A stretch of DNA of 64,000 bases. Origin: Croceivirga sp. Lineage in GTDB: Bacteria; Bacteroidota; Bacteroidia; Flavobacteriales; Flavobacteriaceae. The notes under the pieces were generated by a model, which was given only the letters and a program-made list of their open reading frames with translations, had not been told where the DNA came from and made no database searches. The stretch covers positions 62,001 to 126,000 of the forward strand of contig JANQRG010000042.1 in assembly GCA_028284665.1 (NCBI GenBank), in the 5' to 3' direction. Below are positions 2-56,335 of this stretch, in pieces. Every line of letters begins with the position of its first letter. Position 1 is the stretch's first letter. A program made the translations under genes and the position numbers.

Positions 2-1504
2 GGCGGGCGTAGTATGGGTTGGGTGCCCCTAAGCTTGTCCACGATGGCGACACAACTATCTGCGATCAGTTTTATTTCTGCGCCGGCTTTTGTGGGAATA
101 AAAGATGGGGGAGGGCTGCAATGGCTTACTTACGAATTTGGGGTGCCCCTGGCAATGGCATTTTTGTTGATAGCCCTAATTCCTTCACTCTATAAAGCGG
201 GCATCGTAAGTGTTTATGAATACCTGGAGCGACGTTTCGACGCTTCTTCCCGTTTGCTTATTAGTTTTGTCTTTCAGGTGAGCCGATCTGTAGCCACAGG
301 GGTAATGGTGTACACCATGGCACTTATACTTCAGGCCACTACTGGAATTGAATTTTGGATATCTGTGATTTTGATTGGGGTCATTACCTTGATCTATTCT
401 TTTCAGGGCGGAATGAAGGCGGTGATATGGGGCGATGTCATTCAAATGTTGATCCTATTCCTGGGAATTGTAATATGTCTCACCTATGGCTTAAGTGAAT
501 TGGGCGGTTGGGATAACTTTTTAACACAAGTAGATTCCGATCGGTTAACCGCGGTGGACTTCAGTAAATGGGGATTCACCAATGGGGATGGGCAGGATGA
601 GTTTGGGTTTTGGCCAATGGTAATTGGCGGATTCTTTCTCTACGCTTCGTATTACGGAACGGACCAGACCCAAACGCAGCGCTTACTCTCCGCCAAGGGA
701 TTGCCTACCATAAAGAAATTGCTGCTGGCCAACGGACTATTCCGGTTTCCGGTTACCTTAACGTATTGTATTATGGGATTGGTACTCGGCACCTTGCTAC
801 TTTCCGACCTGGGCTTTCAAGATCAAATAGAGCAGGTGTACACCGCAAATATTGATAGCCTGGAAGGTAAAAAAGCCGATCTTATGGTTCCGGTTTTCAT
901 TATAAAATACCTACCCAATGGTATTATCGGAATTTTGCTGGTGGCCATAATGTCCGCTGCCATGTCTTCCTTAAGTTCTACGGTTAACTCCCTGAGTGCT
1001 GTGACTATAGAAGATTTTGTCAAGCGGTTCAAAGGCGATCTATCGGATACCCAATACGTACGGTATTCGAGATTTCTGTCAATTTTCTGGGGATTGGTTT
1101 GCCTGTTCTTCGCCTTTTTTGCCGGCAATATAGAGGGTACCGTGATTGAGGTGATCAATAAGGTCAGCTCTATTTTCTATGGCCCTATCCTCGCTGCCTT
1201 TATATTAGCCTTGTTAACCAAACGAACACATGCCCTGGGCGCCAATATTGGTATTGTTATCGGGGTAGGTTTGAATATGTATTTATGGCTTTATGTACCG
1301 GAAGTATTTTGGTTTTGGTGGAATGCTATAGGTTGTGTAGTTACGTTGGTTGTGGGGTATGTGATCAGTATTTTGATACCGAAAACAACAAAGCAGGGGA
1401 TTAAAATAGGATTCTACAAAGCCAATACGGAGGTTTTGATCTTATTGTGCTATTTTGTTTTAATTGTAGCGATTTCCATACTATTAAAATCAATTCTTTT
1501 GTAG
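2..1504 (+). CDS. Sodium:solute symporter (SSS family), 5' end outside window
   Basis: C-terminal 500 residues of a multi-spanning inner-membrane Na+-coupled symporter. The frame is open to the left edge, and the residues before the first Met (GRSMGWVPLS) match the loop before TM2 of the SSS/SLC5 family, so about one helix is missing. The usual SSS stretch MATQLSAISF is followed by some 12 hydrophobic segments, including a long periplasmic loop around residues 260-290. The stop codon directly abuts the ATG of a GH13_18 phosphorylase, followed by glycerate kinase and a GntP permease, so it probably imports the sugar substrate of that pathway. Family is clear; substrate is inferred from neighbours only. 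Confidence 0.9.
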   Translation, partial: GGRSMGWVPLSLSTMATQLSAISFISAPAFVGIKDGGGLQWLTYEFGVPLAMAFLLIALIPSLYKAGIVSVYEYLERRFDASSRLLISFVFQVSRSVATGVMVYTMALILQATTGIEFWISVILIGVITLIYSFQGGMKAVIWGDVIQMLILFLGIVICLTYGLSELGGWDNFLTQVDSDRLTAVDFSKWGFTNGDGQDEFGFWPMVIGGFFLYASYYGTDQTQTQRLLSAKGLPTIKKLLLANGLFRFPVTLTYCIMGLVLGTLLLSDLGFQDQIEQVYTANIDSLEGKKADLMVPVFIIKYLPNGIIGILLVAIMSAAMSSLSSTVNSLSAVTIEDFVKRFKGDLSDTQYVRYSRFLSIFWGLVCLFFAFFAGNIEGTVIEVINKVSSIFYGPILAAFILALLTKRTHALGANIGIVIGVGLNMYLWLYVPEVFWFWWNAIGCVVTLVVGYVISILIPKTTKQGIKIGFYKANTEVLILLCYFVLIVAISILLKSILL

Positions 1505-3172
1505 ATGACAACGCTACAGTCCCTAATTCAGCAGTTGTATCCTGAACAGAGCACTGAAATACTGCACGGTATTCAGGAGTTAATAGAAAAATATGCTCTG
1601 GCGCCAAACCCTTTGAAAGACCTCTCCTTTCAAGATGTTATCCTGATCACCTATGGAGATGGAATTATAGCCAACAATGCATCACCACTTTCAGCACTAA
1701 AAAGCTTCAGTGACCGATACCTCAAAACAGCAGTTAGTGCCCTCCATTTGTTACCGTTTTATCCATTTTCGTCGGATGATGGTTTTAGCGTCATTGACTA
1801 TTTTACGGTAAACCCGGACCTGGGAGATTGGGAGGATATCAAAGCGCTTTCGGAACACTATGAATTGATGTTTGACGCCGTAGTAAATCATATCTCAAAA
1901 GCATCGGAATGGTGCTCCGGCTATCTGGAGGACAATCCGCGGTATCACGATTATTTTATTAGTACTGATCCGGATCAGGATTTGACAGAAGTAGTACGGC
2001 CCAGGGCGCTGCCATTATTGCACCTCTATTCCAAGAAAAATGGGGAGCAGGTTTATTTATGGACGACTTTTAGTAACGACCAGGTGGATCTAAACTATGA
2101 AAACCCAGAGGTCTTTTTACATGTGCTGGAGGTACTGCTTTTCTATGTCGGCCGGGGTGCACGGTATATTCGGTTGGATGCTATCGCCTTTCTCTGGAAA
2201 AAAGTAGGAACTTCCTGCATCCATCTACCCGAAACCCATTGGATCATTCAGGCGTATAGATCAGTCTTGGAAGCAATAGCACCAAATGTAGTTTTGATTA
2301 CCGAGACCAATGTTCCGCATCAGGAAAACATCAGTTATTTTGGCAACGGCCATAACGAAGCCCATATGGTGTATAATTTTACGCTACCTCCGTTACTGGC
2401 CTATTCGTTACACCAGGAAAGTGCAGCAATCCTTACCGAATGGGCAAGTAGTCTGGAGCTGCCTGGCAAAAGCTGTTTCTTTAATTTTACTGCAAGTCAT
2501 GATGGGGTGGGCGTACGGCCGCTTCAGGGAATAGTATCCGGAGAGGATATCCAGGAATTGGCGGATAAAGTGCTAGATCATGGGGGTTTTGTCTCCTATA
2601 AAGACAATGGGGATGGTACGCAATCCCCGTATGAGTTAAATTGTAATTATTTAGACCTGTTGACCCATCCGGATGAAAAAGAGGAACTTCGTATACAACG
2701 CTTTTTGCTGACCCAATCCGTAATGCTTTGCATGCCTGGTGTTCCGGGAGTTTATTATCACTCCATTTTGGGATCCAGAAACGATAGGCAGGCTGCCGTA
2801 GATTCCGGAATACACAGAAGGATCAATCGGGAAAAACTAGCACTTGAGGAATTGGAGGCCGAATTGGAAGATATACATAATCTGAGGCACAAGATCTTTT
2901 CAGAATATTCGAAAATGCTTGCTATTCGAAGAACCGAACCGCTTTTCGATCCCTTTGGAAAAGCAGATTTTTTTCACGAGAATGGGCTATTTCATATAGA
3001 ACGAAAAGCCGGAAGGCTAACATTGCGATGTATCCATAATTTTACTTCACGGCGCTATAACTTGAAATCAAAACCCGCTGAAGCTGAAGTACTCTATGTT
3101 AGTGGTAATCCCGAAATAGAAGATACGCTTGGGCCTTTTGAATTTTGTTGGTATAAAATAGAAACGCAATGA
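1505..3172 (+). CDS. GH13_18 sugar phosphorylase, likely glucosylglycerate phosphorylase
   Basis: Cytosolic 555-residue (beta/alpha)8 alpha-amylase-superfamily enzyme of the sucrose-phosphorylase subfamily. It should cleave an alpha-glucoside with phosphate, giving glucose 1-phosphate. Visible landmarks are VNHIS (His129), nucleophile Asp225 in RYIRLDAIAF, acid/base Glu267 in LITETNVPH and the transition-state Asp333 in ASHDGVGVRP. There is no signal peptide. The length is nearer to the glucosylglycerate phosphorylases (E. coli YcjM type) than to classical sucrose phosphorylase (about 500). The next gene, overlapping by ATGA, is glycerate 2-kinase, which would use the glycerate released. Seen: fold and catalytic residues. 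Known: GH13_18 includes sucrose, sucrose-6-phosphate and glucosylglycerate phosphorylases. Inferred: the substrate. Sucrose phosphorylase is the main alternative. Confidence 0.85.
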   Translation: MTTLQSLIQQLYPEQSTEILHGIQELIEKYALAPNPLKDLSFQDVILITYGDGIIANNASPLSALKSFSDRYLKTAVSALHLLPFYPFSSDDGFSVIDYFTVNPDLGDWEDIKALSEHYELMFDAVVNHISKASEWCSGYLEDNPRYHDYFISTDPDQDLTEVVRPRALPLLHLYSKKNGEQVYLWTTFSNDQVDLNYENPEVFLHVLEVLLFYVGRGARYIRLDAIAFLWKKVGTSCIHLPETHWIIQAYRSVLEAIAPNVVLITETNVPHQENISYFGNGHNEAHMVYNFTLPPLLAYSLHQESAAILTEWASSLELPGKSCFFNFTASHDGVGVRPLQGIVSGEDIQELADKVLDHGGFVSYKDNGDGTQSPYELNCNYLDLLTHPDEKEELRIQRFLLTQSVMLCMPGVPGVYYHSILGSRNDRQAAVDSGIHRRINREKLALEELEAELEDIHNLRHKIFSEYSKMLAIRRTEPLFDPFGKADFFHENGLFHIERKAGRLTLRCIHNFTSRRYNLKSKPAEAEVLYVSGNPEIEDTLGPFEFCWYKIETQ

Positions 3173-4290
3173 AAATCCTTGTCATTCCGGATAAATTTAA
3201 GGGGTCACTAACAGCAAAAGAAGTCATTTCAGGTATCTCCCAAGGGGTGAAAGCGGTGTTTCCGGAAGCAGAAATTGCCCATGTTTTGGCTTCTGATGGA
3301 GGCGATGGTTTTTTGGACTCCATTTCAAAATATGTAGCGGTAAGATCTGTATCCGTGGATACGGTGGATCCGTTGGGGAGACCGATAGTTGCGTCCATTC
3401 TTTTTGACGATGATAAGAAAGCCGCTTACATTGAATTAGCGAAGGCCTCAGGTTTGGTGCTGTTAGAGGACGCGGAGCGTAATCCGATGAAAACATCTAC
3501 CTATGGTTCCGGTCTGCAATTTAAAAAGGCAATAGCGCTGGGTGCAAAGGCAATTTACGTTGGATTAGGCGGAAGCGCGACCAATGACGGCGGAATGGGT
3601 ATAGCAAAAGCACTCGGGTACGAATTCCTGGATAGCTCAGGACGGGAATTGGCGCCTGTTGGGGAAAACCTTGCAAAGGTTCATCATATTGAGACTAATG
3701 AAGGGCTGGGAAACATCTCTTTCTATGCGATCAACGATGTGAACAATCCCTTATTCGGCATGAATGGAGCAGCCCATGTCTATGCCGAACAAAAAGGGGG
3801 GGCTGAAGAGCAGATATCCCAATTGGACGAGGGGTTGCAGCAGTTGGACAGGGTGGTGCAGCAACAATTGCAACAACAAAATGCCTTCATCCCGGGAGCA
3901 GGAGCCGCAGGTGGTACTGCTTACGGGCTAAAAACCTTTTGCGCGGCAACGTTTATGAGTGGTGTGGAGTTTGTTTTGCAATTATCCGGGGTGTATACGC
4001 TTCTTGAACACGAAGATTTTGATTTTATAATAACCGGGGAGGGGCGAATAGATAATCAAACACTTCAGGGGAAGCTCATTAGTGGTGTGGTAGCTTTGGG
4101 AGAACGATTTGCTATTCCGGTAATAGGAGTGTGTGGAAAATTGGAACTCAGTGCCAAAGAAGGAAAGGAATTTCCTGTCGACACTATCCTGGAGATTTCA
4201 AGAAAGGATAAACCGTTAACGTTTAACATGGAACACGCAGGAGTTTTGTTAGAAGAAGCAGTAACCCACTTTTTTAAGCAGTATCAATAA
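3169..4290 (+). CDS. Glycerate 2-kinase (GlxK/GarK family)
   Basis: A 373-residue class II glycerate kinase that phosphorylates D-glycerate to 2-phosphoglycerate with ATP, feeding lower glycolysis. It opens with the family signature MKILVIPDKFKGSLTA, and has the glycine-rich GLGGSATNDGGMG stretch around residue 125 and TGEGRIDNQTLQGK near residue 290. Length matches E. coli GlxK/GarK. The start ATG overlaps the stop of the phosphorylase (ATGA), indicating translational coupling, and the GntP permease starts two bases after its stop. No glyoxylate carboligase or tartronate semialdehyde reductase is nearby, so the glycerate source is more likely the phosphorylase than glyoxylate or glucarate degradation. 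Confidence 0.93.
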   Translation: MKILVIPDKFKGSLTAKEVISGISQGVKAVFPEAEIAHVLASDGGDGFLDSISKYVAVRSVSVDTVDPLGRPIVASILFDDDKKAAYIELAKASGLVLLEDAERNPMKTSTYGSGLQFKKAIALGAKAIYVGLGGSATNDGGMGIAKALGYEFLDSSGRELAPVGENLAKVHHIETNEGLGNISFYAINDVNNPLFGMNGAAHVYAEQKGGAEEQISQLDEGLQQLDRVVQQQLQQQNAFIPGAGAAGGTAYGLKTFCAATFMSGVEFVLQLSGVYTLLEHEDFDFIITGEGRIDNQTLQGKLISGVVALGERFAIPVIGVCGKLELSAKEGKEFPVDTILEISRKDKPLTFNMEHAGVLLEEAVTHFFKQYQ

Positions 4291-4291
4291 T

Positions 4292-5620
4292 ATGGAACTA
4301 TTACTACTTCTGGGAGTTATTGTCTTAATTGTTATCGCAACAGTAAAGTATAATGTGCACCCGGTTTTTTCATTAACAATTGCCGGGATTATCTCCGGTT
4401 TGTTGTTTGGGTTGACCCCCAAAATGGTAATGGATACCATAAGCGATGGCTTTGGAAAGACCCTTTCCGGAATTGGTTTGGTAATAGCCTTTGGGACCAT
4501 TATCGGGACCTTCCTTGAAAAGACAAAAGGAACAAAAGTGTTGGCCAATGCCATTTTAAAATGGATTGGGCTGAAAAGGTCGCCGTTAGCTTTAAATTTG
4601 GCAGGTTTGGTGATCTCTATTCCTGTGTATTGTGATTCAGGATTTGTTATTCTGTCCTCTTTAAATCGTGCACTAAGTAAGAAATCGGGAATAAAAATGG
4701 CAGTATTTGCTGTTGCCTTGGCAACCGGATTGTATGCTGCGCATGTCTTTGTTCCCCCGACTCCCGGACCTCTGGCAGCTGCTGCGATTTTGGAAGCTGA
4801 TTTGGGGCTGGTAATGCTTTTTGGGATTGCGGTGGCCATTTGTGTTTCCGTTTCCGGGTATGCTTGGGCACTTTTTATTGGAAAACGATTGACAACTAAC
4901 GAGACTGACAATGAAATACAGAAAGTTACGGAGGGCGAAGAAATTGAGGTATTACCCGGTCTATGGCAGACCCTGCTCCCTATAGTATTGCCCCTTGTCC
5001 TAATCGCATTGAAATCGATAGCCGAATACCCCTCGCAGCCTTTTGGAGAAGGGTTATTAGCTAAAACTTGTAGTTTTCTTGGCCACCCCATTTTAGCACT
5101 ATTTTTCGGAGTCCTGCTTTGTTTTATAATGTTAGGGAAGGGGCGATCCAAGGCGAAACAGCTATGGGTAGGGGAATCCTTAAAACAGGCCGGGAGTATT
5201 GTACTGATTACCGGAGCCGGAGGTGCATTTGGTGCTGTTTTGAGGACACTGGATTTTGAATCACTATTGAACGTTGGTACTGCATCCGGCTGGGAAGGTT
5301 TACTGCTGGCGTTTGGAATTGCCGCCGTTCTAAAGACCGCTCAAGGCTCCTCCACGGTGTCTATCATTACCACGGCGGCGATTGTGGCTCCTTTGCTGAC
5401 CACCTTCGGATTGGAAAGTACAATAGATAAAGCACTCGCAGTTTTAGCTATTGGAGCAGGGGCTATGACCGTTTCCCATGTTAATGATAGCTATTTTTGG
5501 GTGGTAGCCGAGTTTTCAAAAATGAATATGAAAACGGCCTTAAGGGGGCATACGGTAGCCACTTTGATCCAGGGGCTTGTTGGGATCGCAGCGGTGGTAC
5601 TCTTATATTTTATTTTCTAA
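4292..5620 (+). CDS. GntP-family permease (gluconate/glycerate-type)
   Basis: A 442-residue integral membrane protein with about a dozen hydrophobic segments, of the GntP (gluconate:H+ symporter) family. Family-like stretches are the CDSGFVILSSLNRALSKK loop near residue 113, HVFVPPTPGPLAAA near residue 150, GAGGAFGAVL near residue 308 and SVSIITTAA-type sequence (SSTVSIITTA) near 353. It is the last gene of the plus-strand set; a permease for a hydroxy acid fits glycerate uptake, or efflux of surplus glycerate. Gluconate remains possible, since a gluconokinase is encoded elsewhere in the window (44569-45057) but in a different operon. Its stop codon directly abuts the stop of the convergent DUF4249 gene, leaving no space for a terminator between them. 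Confidence 0.9.
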   Translation: MELLLLLGVIVLIVIATVKYNVHPVFSLTIAGIISGLLFGLTPKMVMDTISDGFGKTLSGIGLVIAFGTIIGTFLEKTKGTKVLANAILKWIGLKRSPLALNLAGLVISIPVYCDSGFVILSSLNRALSKKSGIKMAVFAVALATGLYAAHVFVPPTPGPLAAAAILEADLGLVMLFGIAVAICVSVSGYAWALFIGKRLTTNETDNEIQKVTEGEEIEVLPGLWQTLLPIVLPLVLIALKSIAEYPSQPFGEGLLAKTCSFLGHPILALFFGVLLCFIMLGKGRSKAKQLWVGESLKQAGSIVLITGAGGAFGAVLRTLDFESLLNVGTASGWEGLLLAFGIAAVLKTAQGSSTVSIITTAAIVAPLLTTFGLESTIDKALAVLAIGAGAMTVSHVNDSYFWVVAEFSKMNMKTALRGHTVATLIQGLVGIAAVVLLYFIF

Positions 5621-6520
5621 CTATTCTATGATTATAGTCTGTTTGAATTCCTGGACCACTGCAAAGAAACCTAAAGCAAAATCATTAGGGCGTTCGACAT
5701 TGTCGAATATATTTATATTATCCAATCCCGTGATATCAAATACGTTCCCGCGTACGGTAGCAGCAGGGGTTTCGAATACACCCCCATCATTTTCGGTCTG
5801 TTCCACCAACAAATCGATATAATTAAAGAATTCCTGGTCCGCGCCCAGTATACTAACTTCCAATTCTTCCCCGGGTTCTAAGTCGCGTTCCACGAAATAT
5901 GAAAACTCAAATTGCTGGCCATCAATAAATTGGTCATCCAGCGCTAAAAACTCCCCTTCCCCGAAATCGAAGACGTAGTAGTTCTCGGCATCGGGAACAT
6001 CTGTAATAGTGATTTGTATCTCGGTGTCATCTTCATCAAACAGGGTTTCATCGCCTTGTTCCAGGTTTTCAATCGGCACCGTTGGTATGTATTGTGTCCA
6101 GGCCGCATACTCTCTGCCCTTGTGTTCTAAAATCAACAAAAAAACGGTTTCCGAAGAAATGCCTGCTGTTCTAAAGCGGTTATCCGCACCGGGTTCATTA
6201 CTTGGGATATACACTCCGCTGCCGGGTTCAGATTCTACCAAAACCGCAGCCCTTCCGAATTCTGCACCTGCATTTAGGTCGGTGTTAACCACGCCTGGGA
6301 GAATGATTATTCTATCCAATTCCGTTACCGTGTTTTCACTAAAAAAATCAGTGGTCTCTGTCACCTTAATGCGCACATCTACAAATTCTTGTGATTCGTC
6401 TACCCGCACCAAACCGTTGACCACCAATTTGGGAGGTTCGGGTTGGGTTTCCACATCAATAACATCTTCACATGCCGTAAAAAGAAGTATTGCTATGGTT
6501 AAGGCTAATAATTTTTTCAT
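5621..6520 (-). CDS. DUF4249 family lipoprotein (third gene after TonB receptor)
   Basis: A 299-residue predicted lipoprotein: signal peptide MKKLLALTIAILLFTAC with the lipobox Cys at 17, followed by EDVIDV, the usual start of DUF4249 proteins. The rest is acidic and probably all beta. It closely resembles its upstream neighbour (6560-7462), above all in the second half (LALDDQFIDGQQFEFSYFVE, then ILGAD..FFNYIDL and VEQTENDGGVFE shared). DUF4249 proteins are commonly encoded with TonB-dependent receptors in Bacteroidota; their molecular role is unknown, and a surface or periplasmic partner role is an inference. It is the last gene of the TonB-receptor operon. Confidence 0.88.
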   Translation of the reverse strand: MKKLLALTIAILLFTACEDVIDVETQPEPPKLVVNGLVRVDESQEFVDVRIKVTETTDFFSENTVTELDRIIILPGVVNTDLNAGAEFGRAAVLVESEPGSGVYIPSNEPGADNRFRTAGISSETVFLLILEHKGREYAAWTQYIPTVPIENLEQGDETLFDEDDTEIQITITDVPDAENYYVFDFGEGEFLALDDQFIDGQQFEFSYFVERDLEPGEELEVSILGADQEFFNYIDLLVEQTENDGGVFETPAATVRGNVFDITGLDNINIFDNVERPNDFALGFFAVVQEFKQTIIIE

Positions 6521-7464: not shown

Positions 7465-9864
7465 TTAAAACTTAAAATTGTAAGTAACGGCAGGGACTAT
7501 ACCAAATATGGCGGTACGGACAGCTTCATTTCGTCCGGTATCTTGATTCTGTCGGAAATTAATGGAGGCGGCATTCATCCTGTTATAGAGGTTGTATACG
7601 CCAAATACCCATTCTGATTGAAAACTGCGATTGCGATTTTTCTTGGGCTTTAGCGTTGCTGAGATATCCAACCTGTGATAGTCGGGTAATCGGGTTTGGT
7701 TTCGCAATCCGAAAAAAGGAACCACCAGCCCCTGAAATTCAAATTGTCCTACTGGAAAGTTGGTGGGTTGTCCGGTTTGAAATATGAAGTTCGCATTAAG
7801 GCTCCATGTATCATTGAATTCGTAGTTTCCGAAAAGTGCTATGTCATGGGTTTTATCAAAGGGAGTTGGATACCACTCTCCTAAATTGATCCCTGTTTCC
7901 AGGTTGGAGCGGCCAGTATCCACCACAGGGTCACGACCCGGGGTACGCTGTTCGGACCGGGAGAGCGTATACGCCAGCCAACCTTGAAAGCGCCCCTCGT
8001 TTTTTCGCAATAATAGCTCCAATCCATAGGCGCGGGCCTCTCCGTTCAAAATGACCTGTTCGATCGCATCATTCGCAATCAGATCCGCGCCATCGATATA
8101 ATCAATCCGGTTTTGAATGTCCTTGTAAAACCCTTCTATTTCAAGACTGTACTCTCCGCCATTGATATTTCTGAAATAGCCCAAGGCATATTGATCCAGT
8201 AGCTGGGGTTCTACAAAAGGGCCGCTGGGGGTCCATACATCCAAGGGGGTAGGGGAGCTGGTATTTGAGAGTAAATGTAGGTATTGTGCCAAACGGGTAT
8301 AACTCGCTTTTACAGAACTCTTTTCATTTAAGGTGTAGGCCATGGATACCCTTGGCTCAAGATTAGTGAATGTAGCCAAACTGCCACTTCTACCAGGATT
8401 TATGGTATCAATTGGCGTGGCTTCCCGATAGATGAGCTGAAAAGGATCGAACAACACGGGTTGGTCATTCTCATAGACAAAGAGTTCGTCCTGCCCCAAC
8501 CGATTAAAATTACTTACCCGCAAACCATAGTTTATACTGAGGTTTTTCGTGATGTTCTGTTCTACGTCCACATAGGCAGCCGCCTCATTGGCATATTTCT
8601 TAGTCAATTGGTCCTCAACAATTCCTGATTCTTCACTATTCGGAGTAATTCTTCCTGGGTTAAAAACGTAGTAGATATTGTTCAGTCCATAATTAATTTG
8701 AAATTTATCATTGATGTAGTGTTTTAGATCGTATTTCACATTAAAGTTTTGAATCCCGGAATCCCACTCAAACCCTACAAAATCAAGTTCTAAGCCATAG
8801 AAGTAATCCGAATAGATCAAAGAAAGATTAGAGAATAACTTGTCTGAAAACAAGTGGTTCCATCTAAAATTCCCCACCGCATTACCGTAGGTATTTACAA
8901 AGCTATCGTTGATGCTAAATAAGTCCCGGCCAAAATAACCGGATAAGAAAATGCTGTTATTTTGATTAATACGATGGCTTATCTTGGTATTCAGATCAAA
9001 AAAATAGGCTCTGTTATCAATATCAAACAAGGGAAGAAATAGATGGGCATAGGAACCTCTTCCCCCTGCCAGAAAAGCCGTTCTATCTTTAATAATAGGT
9101 CCTTCTACGAGCAATCGACTGGCCACTGCACCAATTCCCCCGTTTACTTTGAGTTCTTTACTGTTCCCTTCTTTTTGAAAAATTTCCAAAACCGAAGACA
9201 CCCTGCCTCCGTAGCGCGCAGGAATACCTCCTTTAAAAAGCTTAATATCCTTTATCGCATCTGGGTTAAAAACCGAGAAGAAACCAAAAAGATGCGAAGA
9301 ATTAAAGATGATAGCCTCATCCAGTAAGATCAAATTTTGATCGGCGGCGCCTCCACGTACATTAAATCCGGAGGAAGCCTCTCCAGCATTGGTAACCCCG
9401 GGAAGTAACACCAGGGAACGGATCACATCGGCCTCTCCTAAAACTAAAGGGATTTTCTTGATGGTTTCTACCGCAAGGGTGTTGACACTCATTTGTGGTT
9501 TCCGGATATCCGTGCGTTCCACGTTCTCGGAAACGACTACCTCATCCAGTTGCTCGGCTTTTTCAGCCATCTCAAAATCTACTCTAAGATCAGCATCCAG
9601 ATTTATTTCGCGTCGGATATCCTGAAAACCAAGATAGGAGATCACCAAATTGTATTCCCCTTCAGGCAAGGTAATTGAATAAAACCCATACTCATTAGTG
9701 CTGGTTCCCGTTTGCAATTCCGGGATGGCCACGGTAACTCCGATCAAGGTTTCGTTACTGGAAGCCTCCCGAACTGTGCCACTAACGGTGTATTTTTTTT
9801 GGGAATAGGAATAGGAAAACAATAACAAAAGCCCCATTAAGGGCAGTATTCGTGTTCGCGGCAT
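7465..9864 (-). CDS. TonB-dependent receptor with carboxypeptidase-regulatory-like domain
   Basis: Outer-membrane receptor of about 800 residues. After a signal peptide (MPRTRILPLMGLLLLFSYSYSQ) comes a CarboxypepD_reg-like domain (KYTVSGTVREASSNETLIGV onward, about 80 residues), the plug domain (EVVVSENVERTDI, then SLVLLPGVTNAGEASSGFNV, RGGAADQNLILLDE and GGIPARYGGRVSSVLE) and a 22-strand barrel ending in VPAVTYNFKF with terminal Phe. A Met 14 codons upstream (9906) is possible, but 9864 puts the signal peptide at the N-terminus. It lies in an operon with three DUF4249 lipoproteins. The substrate cannot be read; no polysaccharide-degrading enzyme or SusD homologue is adjacent, so a peptide, siderophore or other small ligand is as likely as a glycan. 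Confidence 0.92.
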   Translation of the reverse strand: MPRTRILPLMGLLLLFSYSYSQKKYTVSGTVREASSNETLIGVTVAIPELQTGTSTNEYGFYSITLPEGEYNLVISYLGFQDIRREINLDADLRVDFEMAEKAEQLDEVVVSENVERTDIRKPQMSVNTLAVETIKKIPLVLGEADVIRSLVLLPGVTNAGEASSGFNVRGGAADQNLILLDEAIIFNSSHLFGFFSVFNPDAIKDIKLFKGGIPARYGGRVSSVLEIFQKEGNSKELKVNGGIGAVASRLLVEGPIIKDRTAFLAGGRGSYAHLFLPLFDIDNRAYFFDLNTKISHRINQNNSIFLSGYFGRDLFSINDSFVNTYGNAVGNFRWNHLFSDKLFSNLSLIYSDYFYGLELDFVGFEWDSGIQNFNVKYDLKHYINDKFQINYGLNNIYYVFNPGRITPNSEESGIVEDQLTKKYANEAAAYVDVEQNITKNLSINYGLRVSNFNRLGQDELFVYENDQPVLFDPFQLIYREATPIDTINPGRSGSLATFTNLEPRVSMAYTLNEKSSVKASYTRLAQYLHLLSNTSSPTPLDVWTPSGPFVEPQLLDQYALGYFRNINGGEYSLEIEGFYKDIQNRIDYIDGADLIANDAIEQVILNGEARAYGLELLLRKNEGRFQGWLAYTLSRSEQRTPGRDPVVDTGRSNLETGINLGEWYPTPFDKTHDIALFGNYEFNDTWSLNANFIFQTGQPTNFPVGQFEFQGLVVPFFGLRNQTRLPDYHRLDISATLKPKKNRNRSFQSEWVFGVYNLYNRMNAASINFRQNQDTGRNEAVRTAIFGIVPAVTYNFKF

Positions 9865-9926
9865 TGGTATGGTTTGTTTAAAAATAAGGAAAATAGTTGT
9901 TGGCATAGTAAATATTAACAGAGAGC

Positions 9927-54493: not shown

Positions 54494-56335
54494 ATGGGAC
54501 GGTACATAACGGTTTGGTTAGCAGCATGTATTCCTCTCATTCTGTTGGGACAGGAACGCAGTTTGCCTGCAGACCTTAGGACGCATAATCTTACACAGAT
54601 CAATGCTAGTTTGTTGAATCCAATATTTTCATTAACCGAAAATGAGCAGGGGTCCCTTTCCGTATGGACGCGTTGGCAGTGGCAGACGTTCGATGGCGAT
54701 CCCACCACATTGTTCATCAACTATTCGCAACTATTTGGGGAACGAACTGCCGCTGGATTGGGTTTTTTTCAAAACAATACCGGGGTATTTCTGAATACAG
54801 GGGCGACCTTAAATGCAGCATGTTCCTTTACAGTAGGGGAAACTACCGATCTGGTGATCGGGACCAATCTTTTTGCGTTTAACCAGGAACTAGCAGATGA
54901 AAACTTCGGCTTTCAACCCTCAGATTCTACGGTTATCGCCCGAGAAAATGCATTTCTCCTCAGACTATCCCCTGGCATTCAACTGAAAGCCAATACTTTT
55001 AGCATTGGAGTGGTGGTAGACAATGTCCTGAAATTGGATCTGTCCGATGCGGAAAGTGATGATACCCCAACGGTATTCACAGGAATGATTGGTAATGATT
55101 TTCCAATTACCTTTTTTGAAAAAGAAAGTCATTTCAAACCTATGGCATACATACGAGCCATACAAAATGCGGACGCACAATTTGGGGTAGTGGCTTTTTT
55201 CGAGCATCCCATGTTTTGGGTTCAAAGCGGCTATAACAGCTTTTATGGATTTTCCGGTGGAGTTGGGGTAACCCTGGTTGAGCAATTTCGATTAGGGGCA
55301 TTGCTCGAGACAGGTTTGGATACCCCTGCTAGTAATGAAGATGCCACCTTAGAACTGTTGATCTCCTATGTTTTCGGAGGACAAAAATCCACTAAGAAGA
55401 AGAACGAAGAACAAGGAGTAGCGGTTGAGGAAGAAATACCACCTGCTCCTGAAGTGGAACCAAAGCCTGAAGAAGAAGCACGAGAAAACCAGCGTATTGA
55501 AAGGGAACGGGCCCTGGCAAATGCAAGACAAGATTCAATTAGCCGGGCTAAAGAAGCTGCACGTTTGCAAAGAGAAAGCGAATTGGCCAAAGCAAGGCAA
55601 GATTCCATCAATCGTGTAAGGGAGGTTGAACTGGCAAAAGATAACGAAGCCGCACGCTTGCAAAGAGAAAGTGAATTGGCCAAAGCAAGACAAGATTCCA
55701 TCAATCGTGTTAGGGAAGTTGAATTGACAAAAGCTCAGGAAGCTGCACGTTTGGAAAGGGAAAGTGAATTGGCCAAAGCAAGGCAAGATTCCATCAATCG
55801 TGTTAGGGAAGTTGAACTGGCGAACGCCAAAGAAGCCGCACGCTTGGAAAGGGAAAGGGCATTGACCAAGGCAAGAGAAGACTCTATCAATAATGCACAG
55901 GAAGTTGAACTGGCAAAAGTTAAGGAAGCCGCTCGTTTGGAAAGGGAAAATGCATTGGCTAAAGCAAGACAAGATTCCATCAACAGCTTAAAGAAAGCTG
56001 CCCGTTTGGATAGTCTGAAAACAGTTGAGCAGGAAAAAGATGTTGCCATCCAGCCAGGCGAAAAGTATGAGGAAGTCGCAACGGAAGATGGGTTAGCCCC
56101 TGGATTCTATTTAATCGCAAACGTTTTTGGAACTAAAAAATACTTCGAGAATTTTATAAAAACACTGCAAACCAAGGGACTCGAGCCAAAATCGTTTTAT
56201 AGAAAGCTCAATGGGTATAATTACGTGTATTTAGAAAGATACGATTCAATTAGTGAAGCCCGAAAGGCTCGCGATAGTAAATTTAATGGTCGTTATTTAG
56301 ATAAACTGTGGATATTCAGGGTAAAGGGGAAATGA
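54494..56335 (+). CDS. PorP/SprF-like outer-membrane barrel fused to repeat coil and SPOR-like domain
   Basis: 613 residues. Signal peptide (to about residue 19, LLGQ), then residues 20-300 resemble the PorP/SprF family (INASLLNPIFSLTENEQGSL, TRWQWQTFDGDPTTLFINYS), which in other Flavobacteriia accompanies type IX secretion and gliding adhesins and forms an outer-membrane beta-barrel. Next comes a Glu/Lys/Arg-rich stretch with 31-residue repeats (residues 334-501) and finally a SPOR-like domain (FYLIANVFGTKKYFENFIKT, YLERYDSISEARKA) at residues about 535-613. Ordinary PorP/SprF proteins are about 310-350 residues, so the tail is extra. Inferred role: a barrel anchored by a helical rope to peptidoglycan. 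No adhesin gene is adjacent. Confidence 0.85.
   Translation: MGRYITVWLAACIPLILLGQERSLPADLRTHNLTQINASLLNPIFSLTENEQGSLSVWTRWQWQTFDGDPTTLFINYSQLFGERTAAGLGFFQNNTGVFLNTGATLNAACSFTVGETTDLVIGTNLFAFNQELADENFGFQPSDSTVIARENAFLLRLSPGIQLKANTFSIGVVVDNVLKLDLSDAESDDTPTVFTGMIGNDFPITFFEKESHFKPMAYIRAIQNADAQFGVVAFFEHPMFWVQSGYNSFYGFSGGVGVTLVEQFRLGALLETGLDTPASNEDATLELLISYVFGGQKSTKKKNEEQGVAVEEEIPPAPEVEPKPEEEARENQRIERERALANARQDSISRAKEAARLQRESELAKARQDSINRVREVELAKDNEAARLQRESELAKARQDSINRVREVELTKAQEAARLERESELAKARQDSINRVREVELANAKEAARLERERALTKAREDSINNAQEVELAKVKEAARLERENALAKARQDSINSLKKAARLDSLKTVEQEKDVAIQPGEKYEEVATEDGLAPGFYLIANVFGTKKYFENFIKTLQTKGLEPKSFYRKLNGYNYVYLERYDSISEARKARDSKFNGRYLDKLWIFRVKGK
55493..55996 (+). repeat. 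Tandem 93-base coding repeats (31-residue units)
   Basis: Four full 31-residue units (starting at 55559, 55652, 55745 and 55838), flanked by two partial 22-residue units at 55493 and 55931. Each carries AR-L-x-RE-x-x-LAKARQDSIN near its start. At DNA level the units are highly similar, suggesting recent expansion and a risk of length change by slippage. Confidence 0.92.

Follow-up and report, generated by a model that had tools for sequence, protein, structure and literature searches.

Among described systems, the closest to the locus considered here are those built around the GH13_18 2-O-alpha-glucosylglycerate phosphorylases (GGaPs) of Meiothermus silvanus, Spirochaeta thermophila and Escherichia coli, where the enzyme, YcjM, is listed as a characterised GGaP in a review (PMC8950772) and is also annotated as one. 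According to PMC7178133, GGaPs are recognised by a (T/S)ETN motif at the tip of strand beta-5 together with a loop-A Glu in place of the Gln that most other clades carry. In the M. silvanus enzyme, exchange of Asn275 or Glu383 causes a severe loss of activity, and the company that the family keeps with glycerate kinase is already described there. The same two motifs were used for the same assignment in the Rhodoalgimonas genome paper (PMC10608839). In Prochlorococcus, a putative transporter gene adjoins an operon of glucosylglycerate metabolism (PMC11631117), and, according to PMC6298971, digeneaside may serve North Sea Flavobacteriia as a substrate.

The window, by which we mean the whole 64,000-nucleotide stretch of Croceivirga sp. 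DNA that was analysed (G000:C3:62001-126000 in our numbering, with the operon as locus L002), opens with four genes in the order SSS symporter, GH13_18 phosphorylase, glycerate kinase and GntP permease (Table 1). The initial annotation had described them as abutting or overlapping genes of the plus strand, and our ORF calls, made mechanically with the longest first, return the same coordinates and junctions. The spacing is 0, -4 and +1 bp: a TAG stop runs directly into ATG, an ATGA overlap follows, and then a single base. The same four-gene order is found in another genome of the genus (G584, phosphorylase 94% identical) and in one of another genus (G086, 56%), which indicates that the arrangement is not due to chance. 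Like the three GGaPs named above, the window enzyme has both specificity marks, the catalytic residues and the length; its partners, however, are a sodium symporter and GntP, whereas E. coli ycjM stands with an ABC transporter. The likeness to Prochlorococcus, which is one of description rather than of aligned transporters, is that a pathway for glucosylglycerate breakdown lies next to a transporter and import from outside is proposed; unlike the window operon, that of Prochlorococcus belongs to an organism that also makes the compound (PMC11631117).

Table 1. Features of the operon in the window, with Pfam scores in bits where obtained
Feature	Position	Strand	Basis
SSS-family symporter, predicted Na+:glycosylglycerate importer	2..1504 (3' 500 codons)	+	PF00474 (SSS), 157 bits; NCBIfam TIGR00813; neighbours
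GH13_18 2-O-alpha-glucosylglycerate phosphorylase (GGaP), predicted, 555 aa	1505..3172	+	PF00128 (alpha-amylase catalytic domain), 99 bits; families, residues, AlphaFold model
LITETN codons (residues 264-269), with the TETN motif typical of GGaP at strand beta-5	2294..2311	+	alignment; rule of PMC7178133
SPYELN codons (residues 374-379), with the loop-A Glu that marks GGaP; sucrose phosphorylases have Gln	2624..2641	+	alignments
Glycerate kinase, 373 aa	3169..4290	+	PF02595 (Gly_kinase), 375 bits
GntP-family permease, predicted D-glycerate carrier, 442 aa	4292..5620	+	PF02447 (GntP_permease), 318 bits; kinase-GntP pairs without GGaP

The full symporter ORF (L002:11900-13504, 534 aa) has its first 100 bp upstream of the window. 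Because a small divergent DUF6095 gene (L002:11546-11779) separates it from the DUF4294 gene further upstream, the operon most likely begins at the symporter. Downstream, on the other strand, are a DUF4249 gene (5621-6520) and a gene with TonB plug and CarboxypepD-reg domains (7465-9906); both are present in the same-genus genome G586, which has neither symporter nor phosphorylase, and they were therefore left out of the operon. Promoter scans returned no more than chance, with 11 sigma-70 sites against 13.0 expected and, for a Bacteroidota-type pattern, 39 matches against 39.65. Terminator-like sites numbered 13 against 6.3 expected, but are scattered inside genes. Elsewhere in the window, at 55547-55983, a 93-bp unit is repeated 4.7 times in tandem with 83% matching.

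Our reading, to which we give a probability of about 0.77, is that the four genes form one operon with which the bacterium would feed on 2-O-alpha-glucosyl-D-glycerate from outside, a compound that other microbes make under salt stress. It starts from what is observed, namely the gene order, the families, the catalytic and specificity residues, the conserved company and the lack of a match to two kinds of synthase. In the proposed pathway, the sodium symporter would import the intact anionic glucoside, and GGaP would cleave it by phosphorolysis to alpha-glucose 1-phosphate and D-glycerate. From the latter the kinase would form a phosphoglycerate for lower glycolysis, by analogy with E. coli enzymes 2-phosphoglycerate, and GntP would carry free glycerate. 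Phosphorolysis would in this lineage replace hydrolysis, the energy of the bond being kept as glucose 1-phosphate. The substrate of each transporter, the sodium coupling, the direction in vivo and the regiochemistry of the kinase are what we infer.

What had not been mentioned in the initial annotation, and what we regard as the more informative part, is that the symporter is shared with operons for hydrolysis. At E<=1e-130, 33 of the 199 family genomes searched (198 genera) contain the symporter; this cut-off lies in a gap, since the weakest match is at 5e-170. GGaP (E<=1e-60) was found in 7 and a hydrolase-like gene (a relative of the L048 protein, E<=1e-40) in 30. In all 33 genomes the symporter adjoins one of the two enzymes: GGaP in 5 and the hydrolase-like gene in 29, with one genome, G181, having both side by side with it. 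The four symporter genomes that lack the hydrolase-like gene (G000, G086, G102 and G103) have GGaP beside the symporter, and every one of the 29 hydrolase-like genes lies within 735 bp of it. Among the 166 genomes without an intact symporter, a single one (G150) has the hydrolase-like gene; co-presence by genome gives a Fisher p of 7e-37, not corrected for kinship. At that exceptional locus (L179), the symporter next to the hydrolase-like gene falls into three separate reading frames, through either decay or assembly error. The three additional family genomes examined all (3/3) show the hydrolase-like gene adjoining the symporter. In the window's genus the symporter is present in 6 of 11 genomes, three with GGaP and three with the hydrolase-like gene; L092, L093 and L094, from this genus, combine the hydrolase-like gene with symporter and kinase and have no GGaP.

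Two hydrolase-like proteins were tested; both fall in PF22422 and score 313 and 317 bits with the NCBIfam glucosylglycerate hydrolase model, under its cut-off of 550. That of L048 is a PF22422 protein of the mannosylglycerate-hydrolase-like kind. For L092, the one protein compared with solved structures, the nearest are 2z07/4wva of T. thermophilus and the mycobacterial 5ohc group, taken to be glucosyl- and mannosylglycerate hydrolases (GH63), in part after PMC6608630. The hydrolase-type operons of the family have the orthologous symporter and mostly a glycerate kinase, and differ from the window operon in that the latter has phosphorolysis instead. A point against our reading is that no TonB receptor adjoins the window operon on its own strand, as compared with 16 of the 29 hydrolase loci. 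Zobellia reportedly has a digeneaside operon of the same make-up as these hydrolase-type operons. At L092 and L093, TonB receptor and LacI genes stand beside the hydrolase-type operon.

The alternative that survives best, though we consider it unlikely, is that D-glycerate or another small monocarboxylate is the symporter's substrate and that glucosylglycerate enters otherwise. The monocarboxylate carrier SMCT1 is indeed among the nearest solved relatives of the symporter (with NIS and SMVT), and a glycerate kinase lies on the symporter's strand in 29 of the 33 loci. However, no kinase neighbours the symporter and hydrolase-like gene of G065, G095 and G183, nor is there one in G158, although its locus ends at a contig edge; kinase-GntP pairs exist without the symporter; and at E<=1e-130 every symporter in the 199 genomes of the family is accompanied by a glycosylglycerate enzyme. 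The factor common to the symporter loci is 2-O-glycosylglycerate, which makes the symporter the obvious importer, and we conclude from this gene company that it is probably a dedicated glycosylglycerate importer.

This claim is confined to the near clade, because the association fails in distant homologues. In a wider set of 395 phylum genomes at E<=1e-120, 20 matched and gave 16 new loci, 3 of them in the window's family. Outside the family the symporter-enzyme rule holds in 3 of 13 loci and fails in 10; arranged by symporter identity, the new loci obey it in 5/5 cases at 56% or more and in 1/11 below 56%. The more distant homologues would probably carry other substrates.

The distal half of the operon also exists on its own. 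Kinase-GntP pairs without GGaP, equivalent to the last two genes of the window operon, occur in G586, G056 and G176, and they lend some support to the earlier suggestion that the permease handles glycerate. In G586 (L095), which is of the same genus, the pair occupies the corresponding site, with both symporter and phosphorylase absent. Its flanks align with the window genome at 73-77%, and the aligned blocks are 16 bp apart in G586 against 3183 bp in the window genome. The G586 gap, between the DUF4294 gene and the kinase, holds a piece like the start of the symporter (score 41, equalled by 0/200 shuffles) and a weaker one like the end of the phosphorylase (score 29, equalled by 5/200), relics which show that both genes were lost by deletion. 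The opposite possibility, a later insertion of symporter and phosphorylase into a kinase-GntP pair that the genus already had, was dropped on account of these relics. Relics were also sought in G176, G080 and G018, and none were found; the last two carry the kinase alone at the DUF4294 site. That G586 kept kinase and GntP after the loss points to GntP as a glycerate carrier, and its association is more likely to be with glycerate than with the glucoside. GntP is an optional partner, since it is found at 2 of the 33 symporter loci and beside the kinase at 2 of the 12 further kinase loci without symporter that were examined (G056 and G176). The window kinase is the sole PF02595-family match in its genome at E<=1e-20, MOFRL-type kinases lying outside the search. 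G587 (L096) has symporter, phosphorylase and GntP together, with the kinase elsewhere.

Where the glucosylglycerate comes from bears on a second alternative, which we regard as improbable: that the operon recycles the compound as a self-made osmolyte, as a review supposes for synthesising organisms. Such an arrangement has parallels: in other families of the phylum, 14 of the 20 loci (L053-L072) have GGaP near a GpgS-type synthase gene, unlike the window, and so do G002 and G180. The loci from other families look like clusters for synthesis or turnover; the GpgS-type protein of L054 scores 392 bits with model NF010496, over cut-off, and in L053, L055, L062 and L068 GGaP stands beside a mannosylglucosylglycerate-synthase-like gene. 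In G002 and G180 (L049 and L050), GGaP is clustered with genes for a GpgS-like protein, a MOFRL glycerate kinase and an MPGP-like phosphatase (domains from L049), and a separate operon of hydrolase, symporter and kinase lies elsewhere in the genome. This keeping apart of the synthase cluster and the symporter argues against recycling in the window, as does the symporter at the head of the operon. It is further opposed by the synthase searches. A 402-aa GpgS-like query had no match in the window genome (a search without positive control), and NF010496 exceeded its cut-off of 262 in 0/11 genus genomes, against 1/14 in a control set; the weak matches in 11/11 genus genomes, at 61 and 43 bits in the window's own, look like general glycosyltransferases. 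With neither of the two GpgS kinds found in the genome, supply from outside is the best reading, and the feeding on external glucosylglycerate proposed in the initial annotation fits this result, with cyanobacteria and others as the putative producers.

The phosphorylase carries the residues expected of a GGaP. It has TETN at residues 266-269, N269 included, and Glu377 of loop A within SPYELN; both exchanges are seen again in pairwise alignments with the solved sucrose and glucosylglycerol phosphorylases, which have Gln at the loop-A position. Its loop A lacks the N(L/V)D(I/L/V)YQ typical of sucrose phosphorylases. By alignment, the predicted catalytic residues are D225 (nucleophile), E267 (acid/base) and D333, and the predicted acceptor-site residues N269 and E377. 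We further aligned 59 rows (ORFs >350 aa at E<1e-20 from the loci read, leaving out the copies of the window protein in L002 and of G584 in L127, and the partial GGaP of G522). Both marks are present in 33/33 rows that are at least 40% identical to the window phosphorylase, itself and YcjM (43.5%) included; the five sucrose phosphorylases of the genus (26-28%) have VEIH and NLDLYQ in their place in 5/5 cases, and the remaining 21 rows have neither mark. The preference for glucosylglycerate over sucrose that had been suggested at the outset is thus upheld at the level of specificity residues.

These residues also bear on whether the natural substrate might be 2-O-alpha-mannosylglycerate (red-algal digeneaside) rather than the glucoside. 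This is suggested by the gene resembling GH63 mannosylglycerate hydrolases that accompanies the symporter in sister operons, and by the digeneaside genes that PMC8072126 mentions for Zobellia together with their homologues in Maribacter. Nevertheless, the phosphorylase retains the catalytic residues aligned with those of sucrose phosphorylases, and GH13_18 phosphorylases act on alpha-glucosides according to the review cited above (PMC8950772); we consider a mannoside improbable.

Pfam and NCBIfam place the phosphorylase in GH13 only broadly. Its AlphaFold model (mean pLDDT 90.6, 23 sequences) superposes on the GH13_18 structures 7qqj, 7xdr and 7qqi with target-normalised TM scores of 0.85-0.86 over their length, and a structure search ranked by E-value places amylosucrases at the top, ahead of the GH13_18 structures. 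A tree was made from 44 of the 59 rows, with 15 distant rows left out and the M. silvanus and S. thermophila enzymes not among the rows. The sucrose phosphorylases and amylosucrase-like rows have branches of 5.6-6.5 changes per column and attach at different places, and AU tests on the attachment of the sucrose phosphorylases to the GGaP group favour neither placement (p 0.456 and 0.395). Clustering with sucrose phosphorylases, which had been named as the outcome that would count against glucosylglycerate, is not borne out by the specificity residues, and the tree favours neither outcome. The identification as GGaP is supported, from sequence, by residues and gene company rather than by topology. 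An ordinary sucrose phosphorylase operon is very improbable and was rejected: the best named NCBIfam match is sucrose phosphorylase TIGR03852, but at 202 bits, under the cut-off of 334 and similar to the 221 bits of the GGaP YcjM, against 458 bits for the single genus sucrose phosphorylase tested, and the specificity residues contradict it.

How a GGaP came to stand behind this symporter is suggested by a tree of 37 symporters, from which the pieces <450 aa (L128 and L179) and L127 were left out. The six symporters whose only linked enzyme is GGaP group together as a clade (SH-aLRT 100, from a short search with no bootstrap) among the hydrolase-linked ones, which is the pattern that a single change of enzyme in one lineage would give; the G181 symporter falls elsewhere, outside that clade. 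Thus one lineage probably exchanged hydrolysis for phosphorolysis behind the symporter. A broader proposal, somewhat less than evenly probable in our judgement and offered tentatively, is that this SSS clade is dedicated to 2-O-alpha-glycosyl-D-glycerates, and that one lineage swapped the GH63-type hydrolase for GGaP as its diet may have moved from the red-algal mannoside (or a mixed diet) to glucosylglycerate, with a saving of one ATP for each glucose. Sequence change is much faster in the enzymes than in the transporter across L047, L052, L045 and L046: relative to the window, symporter identity is 85-89%, that of the adjoining phosphorylase 56-63%, of the kinase 50-53% (3 of the 4 loci) and of GntP 61-75% (2 of the 4). 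Related loci also occur outside the phylum: a PF22422 gene, GGaP and a kinase gene are consecutive in Paenibacillus (L130), and GGaP is accompanied by LacI-like and ABC transporter genes in Marinithermofilum (L129).

GGaP itself, its association with glycerate kinase, the hydrolases and the Prochlorococcus transporter gene were already known. Among the literature matches listed, which cover few subscription journals, there is no report of flavobacterial glucosylglycerate use or of an SSS symporter for glucosylglycerate. As far as these matches show, three things are new: a GGaP operon of Flavobacteriaceae that is headed by a symporter, the association of this symporter with the enzymes, and the exchange of hydrolase for phosphorylase. 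A transporter-led operon in an organism with no recognised synthase offers a simple case in which the role of GGaP as a feeding enzyme can be tested. It also names a symporter clade whose substrate could be tested by one uptake assay, and the swap of hydrolase and phosphorylase behind one symporter would provide a tidy natural experiment in energy saving.
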